Assembly (NCBI GenBank): GCA_029941115.1
Contig: JAPYRK010000001.1
Coordinates: forward strand, 62,001 to 126,000
From: Dehalococcoidia bacterium
GTDB taxonomy: Bacteria; Chloroflexota; Dehalococcoidia; UBA2979
Direction: 5' to 3'
Length of the DNA: 64,000 nucleotides
Shown here piece after piece: positions 42,824 to 47,770 of this stretch (the stretch's first letter is position 1; each line of letters begins with the position of its first letter). The notes under the pieces were generated by a model. The model made no database searches, was not told the DNA's origin, and saw only the letters and a program-made list of their open reading frames with translations. Position numbers and translations under genes: made by a program.

Positions 42824-44521
42824 TTACGGCTTTAAATCAAGCCTCTCGATTACTTCAAGTGCCAATGAGTTATAAGCAATTGCGCCAGCCGAACCAGGCG
42901 CATAGTCAGAAATTGTTTGCATATGACTTGGTGCCTCAGCAAGTCTCACAGATCTTGGAATTACAGATTCAAATGTTGCAGCAAACCGCGATCTCACCTC
43001 TCGTTCAACCTCGGCGGCAAGATTAGCTCGGCTATCAACCATTGTGAGTGCGATACCGAGAATTTGGAGCCCCGAATTCAAATTCTCCGTCACCAATTTA
43101 ATAGTCTCCTGAAGCGAACTCAATCCCTCAAGTGCGAAATATTCACACTGCAGAGGTATTAAAACGAAATTCGAGGCCACCAAAGCGTTTATAGTCAAAA
43201 GGCCCAATGCGGGCGGACAATCTATAATTATCACGTCAAAATTACTTTGCACCGACAAAAGTGCACTCTTTAAACGCGTCTCCCGAGCCATCGTACTCAC
43301 TAACTCGATTTCAGCTCCCGCCAATGCCGTAGAACTCCCTAGCAGCGATAATCCAGGTGACTGGGTAGCAGCTAATAGCGTAGCGATGCTCTCACCCTCA
43401 ATCAGTACCCGATAAAGAGCATCACTTGACTCGCTGGCCTCTCTGCCAATCAATGAAGATGTCGCATTAGCTTGCGGATCCGAGTCAACCAATAAAATCC
43501 GTAATCCCATTCCACCAAGTATTGCAGCGATCGACACGGCAGTCGTCGTCTTACCAACCCCGCCTTTCTGATTAGCAATTGCTATAATCACCGCGTGTTT
43601 TCGAAGATTGTCTTGCTCGATAACTTGGCTTTTGACCTCGGAGTCACGAAGTATTGACCGAACTTCCGGCCAACGCGGCATCGGTGCTGGACCCGACTTC
43701 TCCACAGCCATCGCTCCATAACCTACTGCCGTCTTCACTGCTGTAACCAGACTACTCCCTCTAGTTATAGCAAATGCGGCAGCAAACGAATCTCCAGCGC
43801 CGGTTGTGTCGATAGCCTTGGCTGGAATCGCATCAACAGTATAACTTGCGTCACGCAATCTAAGGTATGCCCCCTGATCTCCATTAGTGACAGCAACTAA
43901 GTCGCAGCTCGCAACCAATTCATCCATGTCCGACTGCGACCAACTCTCGGTTTCAATGCGAGACAGAAAAATAGTCACACCGGGCCGACATAATTGCTTG
44001 AGGGTATCTGTCGGTGACGTATTCATTCCAATACTTTGATCACCCTCTACAGTCCGCTGCAAACCCTGCGCAATAATCCACACTTTAGACTCTGGAAATC
44101 TCCGGTAAAAAGACTCTATATCTATATCGTCCGGTATAAGTGGCCCAAAAATAATATTTTTGGGAGTAGGCCACTCCTCTGGTAAATCTGACGCACAAAG
44201 TGCCCTTGTAGGCCGATTAACTAAACGCAACGAACGTTGGTCACTTGACCTCTCTTCAATACGAAAAGTAAGAGTATTCGGGTCCTCAACAATCTTGACC
44301 GTGTGACCTACCAATGCACTACGATCCATATCCAGGCACCCAATAGTTAGGATATTTGCCCGTACGCCTAGCGCGGCTACTGTCCGACCGGCATAGCTTG
44401 GAACGCCACCTGTAGTTGATTCGTGTGCTGAAAACATATCACGAGTAACCGGACCCACTATCAGGACAGGCTCTGCCGAATGCGACACCTCGGACATATT
44501 TAGACGATCTAATTCTTCCAC
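42824..44521 (-). CDS. PfkB-family carbohydrate kinase fused to chromosome partitioning ATPase ParA
   Basis: Single 565-aa ORF: N-half GGVPSYAGRTVAALG and DTTGAGDSFAAAFA (PfkB); C-half VIIAIANQKGGVGKTTTAVSIAAILG...DSDPQANATS...IIDCPPALGLLTINAL (ParA/Soj). ParA portion 42824..43591. Confidence 0.92.
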   Translation of the reverse strand: MEELDRLNMSEVSHSAEPVLIVGPVTRDMFSAHESTTGGVPSYAGRTVAALGVRANILTIGCLDMDRSALVGHTVKIVEDPNTLTFRIEERSSDQRSLRLVNRPTRALCASDLPEEWPTPKNIIFGPLIPDDIDIESFYRRFPESKVWIIAQGLQRTVEGDQSIGMNTSPTDTLKQLCRPGVTIFLSRIETESWSQSDMDELVASCDLVAVTNGDQGAYLRLRDASYTVDAIPAKAIDTTGAGDSFAAAFAITRGSSLVTAVKTAVGYGAMAVEKSGPAPMPRWPEVRSILRDSEVKSQVIEQDNLRKHAVIIAIANQKGGVGKTTTAVSIAAILGGMGLRILLVDSDPQANATSSLIGREASESSDALYRVLIEGESIATLLAATQSPGLSLLGSSTALAGAEIELVSTMARETRLKSALLSVQSNFDVIIIDCPPALGLLTINALVASNFVLIPLQCEYFALEGLSSLQETIKLVTENLNSGLQILGIALTMVDSRANLAAEVEREVRSRFAATFESVIPRSVRLAEAPSHMQTISDYAPGSAGAIAYNSLALEVIERLDLKP

Positions 44522-44605: not shown

Positions 44606-45631
44606 CTACTCCTCGCCGTCAATGAACCCTTCTTCAGATTCCTCATCTGGCTCGTCTTCACTCTCAGCTGGTAGTACTTCAATTCTTCTGTCCCTGCCTC
44701 GTCCTATAGACTGGGTGACTATGTCTGTACGGTCTTGCAAAGTTAAGTGAATTATTCTTCGGTCACCGGCTGACATTGGCTTTAACTCAATAATGTCACC
44801 GCTTTCACTAACATCATTCGCCACCTCATCCGCCAGCTCACGCAACCTATCATGATGCCTTCGACGGTACCCCTCTATATCTACAGAGAAAATAGGCGAT
44901 CCTTGTTTTCCTTTACCCACTATGGTATTTAGTAGGTATTGAAGCGAACTCAAAGTATCGCCACGTTTACCAATCAAAACACCTATATTATCTGCCGACT
45001 CCTCATCGGTCGCGTCAATCTCAAGAGTGACGTCACGACGCCCTCGATCAGTATCTGAATCCTCAGCCTCACTCATGGTTATTTCTGTCCCAGTAAACCC
45101 AAGAAGAGTCAGTACATCTCTAAGAGTACTACCGGCCTCATCCACCTCGTCGTCATACTCTCCAGAAGGCTGCGAAGGTAGATGCTGCGGCGACCCGGGA
45201 ATCGGAATCTCATCGTCGTGAGAAACTCCTACTATTTCAGGTCTCTCAGCTGAGGAAGTATCTTCTTCCACCGAACTCGGCTCAATTTGGTCACTGGATC
45301 CGCCAATAATCTCATCACCCTGACTGTCGGACTGCTTCCTGGCTCGACTCGCTCCGGTCTTATCATTATCTCGATTGGCTCTCTTAGGGTCACCAGATCG
45401 TGGCCCGCGTTTACCTCTCTCTTTTCTAGGTCGGTTTGCCCTCGCCGTAATAACGACGACTGCGTCCTGTCCACCAATTCCTAAAAAACCCTCCTTAGCG
45501 TCTTTTTCTACGTCTACGTCGGCCTGATCCCGACTGATCCCGAGATCCGCCAGGCCCTGTTCTATCGCGTCCTCGACGCTTTTTGCGCTTACCGTCACCT
45601 GCCGGCTGTCCTGATCCTTCTGATTCGTCAC
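44606..45631 (-). CDS. jag: Jag/KhpB RNA-binding protein (Jag-N, KH, R3H)
   Basis: Jag-N VSAKSVEDAIEQGLADLGISRDQADVDVEKDAKEGFLGIGG; KH IGVLIGKRGDTLSSLQYLLN; R3H YRRRHHDRLRELADEVA; GTG start at 45631 behind aaaaggag. Confidence 0.93.
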   Translation of the reverse strand: MTNQKDQDSRQVTVSAKSVEDAIEQGLADLGISRDQADVDVEKDAKEGFLGIGGQDAVVVITARANRPRKERGKRGPRSGDPKRANRDNDKTGASRARKQSDSQGDEIIGGSSDQIEPSSVEEDTSSAERPEIVGVSHDDEIPIPGSPQHLPSQPSGEYDDEVDEAGSTLRDVLTLLGFTGTEITMSEAEDSDTDRGRRDVTLEIDATDEESADNIGVLIGKRGDTLSSLQYLLNTIVGKGKQGSPIFSVDIEGYRRRHHDRLRELADEVANDVSESGDIIELKPMSAGDRRIIHLTLQDRTDIVTQSIGRGRDRRIEVLPAESEDEPDEESEEGFIDGEE

Positions 45632-46490
45632 TAGTGCTCTCCTTTTCTGAGCTCGCCTCTTCATTATCTTGAGAAACTATTCTTTCTTTACCAATTGATT
45701 CTGCGCTAGGTGGAATAAAATCTTTCATTCCAATCTGTCGCCGAATTAAATCCGGAATCAATGAGCCCCAGCGGAAATCGCCCGGGCCAACAAAAATCCA
45801 TTGCAACACTATTCCTATCAGGGTGCTACTTCCCCAATACAACCCCAATCCCGCCGGTGTCGCAAGAACAAACCAAGTAAACATCAACGGAAACATCCAC
45901 TGCATCATCGTATTCATCTGCTGTTGGTTATCGCTACGACTCGCCAAATTCCTATTAGAAGAAATTCGCTGTTGCAACCACATAGAACAAAAAACCAATG
46001 CAGCTAGGGCAAAATCACCATTTTCACCAAGATCAAGCCATAAAAAGTCCCTCGACAATGGAATACTATTCTGCAACCAGCCAACATTATACAAACGGTC
46101 TGACAATGCAACCACAGACTCGGGCGTGCTACCGAGAGTAATTCTGATAACCTGATAAAGTGCAATAAAAATAGGAAACTGTATGAGTTGAGGGCCCAAA
46201 CACCCCAAAGGATTAACTCCCGCCTCACGGTAAAGCTTCATCGTCTCTTCCTGACGGCGTTTAGGATCTGAGTACTTTTTCTGAATCTCCTGCATCCGTG
46301 GTTGAATTTCCTGGAGCTTCTTCATAGAATTCAGCATTCTCACCGTCAAGGGGAATAAAAGGGCGCGCGACAAAAATGTAAAGAGTAGGAGTGCCAGCCC
46401 GTAATCACCAAATGCAATATTTGTGAGTCCCACCATCACATTTACTAGAGGGGTCTCTAAGAATGTTCGCCAGATTGCTCCTATAGGCAC
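45495..46490 (-). CDS. yidC: Membrane protein insertase YidC/Oxa1
   Basis: GLALLLFTFLSRALLFPLTVRMLNSMKKLQEIQPRMQEIQKKY...GVNPLGCLGPQLIQFPIFIALYQVI; basic C-tail KRKKRRGRDR...GRRRRRKRR. Confidence 0.95.
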   Translation of the reverse strand: MPIGAIWRTFLETPLVNVMVGLTNIAFGDYGLALLLFTFLSRALLFPLTVRMLNSMKKLQEIQPRMQEIQKKYSDPKRRQEETMKLYREAGVNPLGCLGPQLIQFPIFIALYQVIRITLGSTPESVVALSDRLYNVGWLQNSIPLSRDFLWLDLGENGDFALAALVFCSMWLQQRISSNRNLASRSDNQQQMNTMMQWMFPLMFTWFVLATPAGLGLYWGSSTLIGIVLQWIFVGPGDFRWGSLIPDLIRRQIGMKDFIPPSAESIGKERIVSQDNEEASSEKESTSDESEGSGQPAGDGKRKKRRGRDRTGPGGSRDQSGSGRRRRRKRR

Positions 46491-46511: not shown

Positions 46512-47711
46512 CTACTCATCAGTTTCACCTTGACGTGTCGAAAAAAGAAGTCGAGCAGAGCCACTCTGGGCGTCTATTTCTAATAATTGGTTATCTTTTG
46601 TAAGTATAATGAGCTTGTCTTCGATCAAAATAGGATTTGCGTCGATATCCCGACCAGTACTAGATTTCCAAAGCTTGTTTCCGGTATCAAGCTCCAACGC
46701 GAAAACAAGTCCCTTCCTGTCAACAAGTAGTAAAGCATCACGGTAAATCACTGGCCTGGCACGAAAATTCGACTGAAGATAGCTACGGAACCATAAAACA
46801 CTGCCTGAATTAACATCAACCGAATAGATAGCTCCGCGGGTAGTAACTGCGTATAAGTTTGATCCATCAATCACCGGTTGGCCGACAATCCAACCATCTG
46901 TCGCAACCCTCCAGTCAATTTTGGGACCACCCAGATCAACTTTCAATAACTCCGACCCAAACGTGCCTATATAACTTGCCTGATTTATAAACAAGCCGTC
47001 CCCTGGCACACCACCGTCTAAATTTAGCTGAGATACTATTTCACCAGCAAACAAGTCCAGAAAAATCATCTGTCCTTTACCTATATCAGTTAAAACAAGT
47101 GTATTTTGAAACACATGAAGACGTGACCAAATTCGATCAGTACCAGTAGACCATCTCTGAAGTACTTCCCCCGAATTAGCTACTAACTTGAAAATTAACC
47201 CTTGATCAGTTGCTATATAAAGATAACCATCGACGAGGACGGGAGTTGAAATAACCTTTTCTCCCAACTCGGTAGCCCAAACCTCAGTCGGAATCTCAGT
47301 TACACCGTTCAAAAGAGATAATTTTCTCACAATTCCAGAATTTGATACGATATATATGTCATCTTGCCCAACAATTAATGGTGTCGAATAAAGCGGATCG
47401 CTGGAAAACTCGTTACTAGACCCTCCACCAAACAAGCCACTCAAAAAGCCGCCACCTTCGTCATCGATATCTTCAAGTTGTACTTCTGGAAAAGACCAAA
47501 GCAACATAGGATTCGACTGCTCTGATATATCAAGACCGGAAATACGGCCTCGATCCACCTGGGCTAGCAGAATTGAGTCTGTTAACTCTAGCGGAGGGGA
47601 CCAGCCCTCAGGACCAGCAAGTCGTGCGCCACAGGCAGACCCTAAAACTAGAATAAGCATCACACCGATAACTGCATAAATCGCAGAAATAGATTGTTTC
47701 ACGTGAAACAT
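46512..47711 (-). CDS. PQQ/BamB-like beta-propeller lipoprotein
   Basis: MFHVKQSISAIYAVIGVMLILVLGSAC lipobox; repeats such as LYAVTTRGAIYSVDVNSGSVLWF. Confidence 0.85.
   Translation of the reverse strand: MFHVKQSISAIYAVIGVMLILVLGSACGARLAGPEGWSPPLELTDSILLAQVDRGRISGLDISEQSNPMLLWSFPEVQLEDIDDEGGGFLSGLFGGGSSNEFSSDPLYSTPLIVGQDDIYIVSNSGIVRKLSLLNGVTEIPTEVWATELGEKVISTPVLVDGYLYIATDQGLIFKLVANSGEVLQRWSTGTDRIWSRLHVFQNTLVLTDIGKGQMIFLDLFAGEIVSQLNLDGGVPGDGLFINQASYIGTFGSELLKVDLGGPKIDWRVATDGWIVGQPVIDGSNLYAVTTRGAIYSVDVNSGSVLWFRSYLQSNFRARPVIYRDALLLVDRKGLVFALELDTGNKLWKSSTGRDIDANPILIEDKLIILTKDNQLLEIDAQSGSARLLFSTRQGETDE
47695..47710. promoter_or_regulatory. parS: parS centromere site
   Basis: Exact 16-bp palindrome TGTTTCACGTGAAACA matching the widely conserved chromosomal parS. 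Confidence 0.95.
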
Positions 47712-47770
47712 CTTACCCACAGTCACGTACTCCAAATCATAAATGCTAATGCGCCTATCCATTTGAACAT

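Follow-up and report, generated by a model that had tools for sequence, protein, structure and literature searches.

Does the DNA at the yidC-jag junction of a Dehalococcoidia genome encode two functional protein segments, the basic end of a membrane insertase and the first domain of an RNA-binding protein, or is one of the two readings an error or a by-product of the other? The junction lies in the 64,000-nucleotide stretch analysed here (the window), in the gene order rpmH-rnpA-yidD-(PQQ propeller)-yidC-jag-(pfkB-parA), and comprises the following features.

45495..46490, minus strand: yidC, membrane protein insertase (YidC/Oxa1/Alb3 family), GTG start and TAA stop; from the open reading frame and Pfam PF02096
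45495..45497, minus strand: yidC stop TAA, whose T is, in the jag frame, the third base of an Ala codon (GCT) and whose two A's open the Lys codon (AAG) that follows
44606..45631, minus strand: jag/khpB, RNA-binding protein with Jag_N, KH and R3H domains, GTG start; three Pfam domains
45632..45643, minus strand: jag ribosome-binding site AAGGAG plus spacer, within the yidC coding sequence; AGGAG match
45495..45631 (137 bp), minus strand: dual-coding yidC/jag overlap, jag frame +1 relative to yidC
45446..45592, minus strand: Jag_N domain, profile positions 1-49; best hmmscan stretch, residues 25-73 counted from the ATG at 45664
45498..45593, minus strand: basic YidC tail GKRKKRRGRDRTGPGGSRDQSGSGRRRRRKRR within jag; from the translation

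The yidC-jag junction

YidC matches PF02096 (60KD_IMP) over residues 30-233 (E=1.5e-48), and its closest solved structures are 3wo6 and 3wvf (YidC). About 98 residues lie C-terminal to the conserved membrane core; they form an extended, strongly basic C-tail, predicted to be cytoplasmic, which ends in ...GDGKRKKRRGRDRTGPGGSRDQSGSGRRRRRKRR. In Jag all three Pfam matches exceed the cut-off (PF14804, Jag_N, 5.2e-14; PF13083, 8.4e-9; PF01424, 4.1e-13), and the PDB matches 3gku and 9lrg are Jag proteins. Chain AA of 9lrg and 9lri is Jag-related, and the two-letter chain name could mean a large assembly, e.g. a ribosome.

The domain match to Jag_N starts near 45592, so that the overlap covers about two thirds of it. 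In this phase the third position of every Jag codon serves as the first position of a YidC codon. The jag start has the Shine-Dalgarno context AAAAGGAGAGCACTA-GTG at 45631. An alternative in-frame ATG at 45664 would lengthen the overlap to 170 bp; the GTG has the stronger support, from its Shine-Dalgarno sequence and from the start position within the genus, both same-genus relatives with a junction (2/2) showing ATG at the equivalent site and also a 137-bp overlap. The preliminary description of this DNA had proposed a 137-bp out-of-frame overlap with jag starting at this GTG behind a Shine-Dalgarno sequence, and the open reading frames, the Pfam matches and the same-genus relatives confirm it. 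A Jag start downstream of 45495 would remove a domain that is conserved phylum-wide to its first residues.

Two neighbouring genes deserve mention. At 46512..47762 (minus strand), between yidD and yidC, is the gene of a beta-propeller protein of PQQ type whose N-terminus resembles a signal or lipoprotein sequence; such a gene also stands beside yidC in the same-genus genome G001, and a BamB-like protein is unusual in the rpmH-rnpA-yidD-yidC-jag cluster. At 42824..44521 (minus strand) a kinase domain of PfkB type and ParA/Soj are fused in one 565-aa open reading frame. The joined frame is also present in G001 (573 aa, L295 11695..13416); in G029, G030 and G031 PfkB and ParA/Soj are adjacent separate genes in different frames.

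Spread of the overlap among genomes

Within the window's family, the junction could be read in 39 genomes from 17 genera, and every one of them had the overlap, always in the +1 phase. Their yidC stop lies 89-122 bp beyond Jag_N position 1, the usual distances being 104, 107 and 113. Among 84 other Dehalococcoidia genomes, 66 had an overlap of at least 20 bp and 36 one of at least 60 bp, again all +1. The class total is therefore 105 of 123 genomes in 44 families, single-contig genomes among them. In 75 of the 123 the overlap extends at least 60 bp beyond Jag_N position 1, and Dehalococcoidia overlaps encode the final 20-45 YidC amino acids in the shifted frame over the jag start. The yidC/jag overlap thus characterizes the whole class, in graded lengths, and is not a lone oddity. 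It is found in family f13, whose single-contig genomes of 1.4-1.9 Mb carry 19-29 reductive-dehalogenase matches each; from these sequence features we infer that f13 is the Dehalococcoides/Dehalogenimonas group.

Elsewhere in the phylum the picture differs: none of 60 loci from other Chloroflexota classes has a deep overlap, two overlap by 26 bp and 16 by 1-19 bp (mostly 14 bp, +1), and the remainder do not overlap. Sporadic +1 yidC/jag overlaps of 26-59 bp were seen outside Dehalococcoidia, in L148 (Clostridia bacterium RGIG2041) and in L301 and L304 (other Chloroflexota, f72). In many relatives contigs break in jag between Jag_N and KH (G032 C146/C188, G040 C102/C149, G016 C46/C54, G037 C240/C242), which suggests an acidic linker too repetitive or too low in complexity to be assembled.

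The spoIIIJ/yidC1-jag operon of Firmicutes, co-transcribed in Bacillus, has the same two genes in the same order and the same Jag_N/KH/R3H architecture. In most sampled Firmicutes, however, the yidC stop coincides with the jag start or precedes it by no more than about 12 bp, whereas here it lies 26-140 bp into jag; the exception among the Firmicutes sampled is Clostridia L148, with a 35-59 bp +1 overlap.

In the YidC tree, no major Dehalococcoidia branch is without overlaps, and at least 11 changes between overlap and no overlap are needed; branch support is weak to modest. One gain followed by about ten losses is the history that we favour, short of proof, from this tree. The idea that +1 was kept as the sole open or basic phase was rejected, as +2 is by chance equally open and more basic. 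Since +2 would have done as well by chance, the uniform +1 phase argues for a common origin; a single origin, by extension of a 14-bp overlap, is plausible. Programmed frameshifting to a YidC-Jag fusion was also considered and dropped; by inspection, the family shares no conserved slippery site.

Selection in the two reading frames

In the overlap, a change that is synonymous in Jag is nonsynonymous in YidC. In 18 within-family pairs, Jag-synonymous differences amounted to 71/517 (13.7%) in the overlap and 1024/2521 (40.6%) downstream (Mantel-Haenszel OR 0.24), and the value was lower in the overlap in 18/18 pairs. Fifteen non-overlapping control pairs gave 159/465 (34.2%) and 1115/3008 (37.1%) for the corresponding regions. 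This 3-fold reduction, confined to the overlap, together with the conservation of Jag_N, shows purifying selection in both frames; the preliminary description had asked for a test of such dual-frame selection, and the comparative tests across overlapping genomes bear it out. At codons that read Lys or Arg in YidC, Jag-synonymous change was 6.3%, compared with 18.7% at other YidC codons (OR 0.29, P=4e-5; OR 0.72 in the downstream control). Among the Jag-synonymous differences accepted in the overlap, the charge class was retained in 49 against 52.3 expected, i.e. without excess.

The shifted frame was also compared with a null in which the Jag protein is fixed and its codons are drawn at each genome's own usage. 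In the window genome the yidC frame stayed open to the real stop in 1.2% of such draws. In the same relative frame of the window's other genes, 2.3% of 16,125 44-codon windows were open, and 0.02% were open with at least 33% K+R; the overlap itself contains 17 K+R in 44 codons, compared with 13.0 in the synonymous draws that remained open. In 20 of 21 low- and mid-GC genomes tested, 0.15-8% of draws left the frame open as far as the real stop, the other being the short-overlap genome G096 (44%); at about 30% GC the observed open length was 28-30 codons against a null median of 3-5. For GC3<0.6, openness reached P<0.05 in 74% of 27 overlapping genomes and in 0/38 controls; by family median, 11/16 families were individually significant (Fisher combined P=2e-11). 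In genomes with GC3>=0.6 an open frame of that length is expected by chance and openness alone is uninformative, so that the evidence there consists of the suppressed synonymous change, the K/R excess and the stop position. K+R content exceeded the null in 23/26 deep-overlap families. The stop fell on one of three sites in 31/31 high-GC family genomes, where 2.4 were expected, the sites having been picked post hoc from the data and the genomes being related, hence non-independent; the codons used at these sites end in T and have a mean usage of 0.10. The synonymous-codon nulls are exceeded in three respects, namely open length, K/R content and stop position.

The overlap might be kept for translational coupling, the ribosomes that translate yidC opening or feeding the jag start, with the residues of the tail irrelevant. 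The jag start and its Shine-Dalgarno sequence always lie inside yidC, as in classical overlapping operon pairs, and yidC and jag are commonly operon neighbours (PMC5078927). Coupling requires an open frame and a stop, however, but neither Arg/Lys content nor low wobble change at all codons as far as the yidC stop, and the excess of K/R codons across families, as well as their reduced change, favours a selected peptide. In addition, stops 60-140 nt beyond the jag start are too distant for ordinary termination-reinitiation. We consider coupling an unlikely explanation of the overlap.

Less likely again is a functionless tail that merely shadows the codons of jag, an acidic Jag_N with C- or A-ending codons automatically giving Arg in this frame. 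Open random synonymous draws do already yield about 8-13 K+R, and a high GC content leaves the frame open by chance. Nevertheless, at 30-45% GC closure is expected within 3-13 codons and the frame is observed open for 27-45, stop sites are kept via rare codons, and the pairwise synonymous test contradicts a mere shadow, the Jag wobble positions being frozen in the overlap only.

The position of the suppression bears on a third possibility, that wobble change near the jag 5' end is blocked by an RNA element or by a constraint on the initiation region (structure, Shine-Dalgarno-like sites) located there. Controls do share a mild start-proximal suppression at Jag codons 1-14 (about 24% change), but they rise to 38-43% at codons 15-35, whereas overlapping genomes stay at 7-17% over codons 1-36. 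In short-overlap genomes the suppression is lost at the yidC stop (OR 0.27 within the overlap, 1.01 beyond the stop). A search for Rfam families in the overlap region found none, which also counts against an RNA element, and we judge such a constraint highly improbable.

Finally, a yidC frameshift in the assembly or a mis-called jag start can be dismissed almost entirely: most annotated co-directional overlaps of more than 60 bp in 338 genomes were indeed judged mispredictions, and none of 715 judged real (PMC2478687), but the frame and position are identical in 105 Dehalococcoidia genomes of 44 families, some of them single-contig, which excludes a frameshift in yidC, and Jag_N is conserved from its first residues.

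Origin and role of the basic tail

Judged by tail composition and by mean net charge over the final 25 residues, YidC ends in a basic tail with or without a jag overlap. SAR202-like relatives have a yidC-jag spacer of 90-135 bp and a YidC that ends in ...RRRRQRRRRANRSR, the non-overlapping lineages mostly being basic-tailed just upstream of jag, and in other classes the mean charge is about +8 over the last 25 YidC residues. The basic character of the tail therefore predates its place inside jag. In two Dehalococcoidia families, f43 and f8, the basic tail is slight or absent, so that it is dispensable in some lineages. Jag_N is present in B. subtilis, Thermotoga and Lactococcus, and in other Chloroflexota without a deep overlap. 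It is older still than the basic character of the tail, and its presence outside the clade without the overlapping frame indicates that the YidC-tail frame is the newer one, overprinted on an older one.

The following history would account for these observations. The ancestor would have had a short (about 14 bp) +1 yidC/jag overlap, as is still common in other Chloroflexota, and the yidC stop would have been relocated downstream stepwise within jag. In the +1 phase each yidC stop (TAA, TAG or TGA) requires a T at a Jag wobble position; relocation costs Jag nothing, because stops are made and lost by synonymous Jag changes. Read in the shifted frame, the acidic, Val/Asp/Glu-rich Jag_N gives Arg, Gly and Ser, since codons of the types GAN and GTN after C or A become CGN or AGA in the YidC frame; it would therefore have been a cheap supply of basic tail. 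The outcome would be 60-140 bp that encode the YidC cytoplasmic tail in one frame and Jag_N in the other, with jag translated from its own Shine-Dalgarno sequence inside yidC.

We therefore read the junction, with a probability of about 0.83, as an ancient and selectively maintained same-strand overlap, in which a functional basic YidC tail would have been overprinted on Jag_N by stepwise stop relocation and would be translated and contact the ribosome. That the tail is functional and lies over an older domain had been suggested from the window; the selection on both frames and the occurrence of Jag_N outside the clade support it. The pattern of selection suggests that the tail is translated in vivo. 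According to work cited in PMC8595059 (Seitl 2014, Wu 2013; title also in PMC4124156), the YidC proteins of R. baltica, O. alexandrii and S. mutans interact with ribosomes through their C-tails. These proteins (YidC2 in S. mutans) and mitochondrial Oxa1 have a long basic C-terminal cytoplasmic tail past the insertase core, as predicted here, but their tails are encoded by single-coding DNA, whereas here the tail lies within jag. By analogy, it probably binds ribosomes or rRNA and helps to dock translating ribosomes at the insertase. A bolder proposal, for which we see little chance, is a charge device: the acidic Jag_N surface and the basic YidC tail, made from one DNA, would bind each other and tether the RNA-binding Jag to the insertase beside the docked ribosome, dual coding and interaction having co-evolved since the origin of Dehalococcoidia.

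No earlier report of a yidC-jag overlap was found in the literature searched, many subscription papers being outside its reach. Among accepted bacterial cases, Thermus rnpA/rpmH comes nearest, described as real out-of-frame same-strand dual coding (Feltens 2003, as presented in PMC9841429). The two genes are neighbours within the same gene cluster as yidC-jag; in Thermus, however, rpmH is nested in rnpA with a shared start site, whereas here a C-terminal tail lies over an N-terminal domain throughout a class. Short co-directional overlaps (-4, -1, -8, -14) have the same orientation, the 14-bp +1 type being that of other Chloroflexota, and among long overlaps phase 1 (+1) is the commoner class (PMC2542354, PMC10666635). 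The yidC/jag overlap differs from the short ones in its 60-140 bp and in that the encoded peptide appears to be selected.

Long same-strand overlaps in bacteria have been treated as annotation errors; this one spans a class, unites two widespread genes, and has dual-frame selection backed by internal controls. It would illustrate a simple route to C-terminal overprinting, in which synonymous changes of the older gene set the stops and an acidic domain yields an Arg-rich peptide. Its presence in the reductive-dehalogenase-bearing f13, of the Dehalococcoides/Dehalogenimonas type, may allow it to be tested directly.
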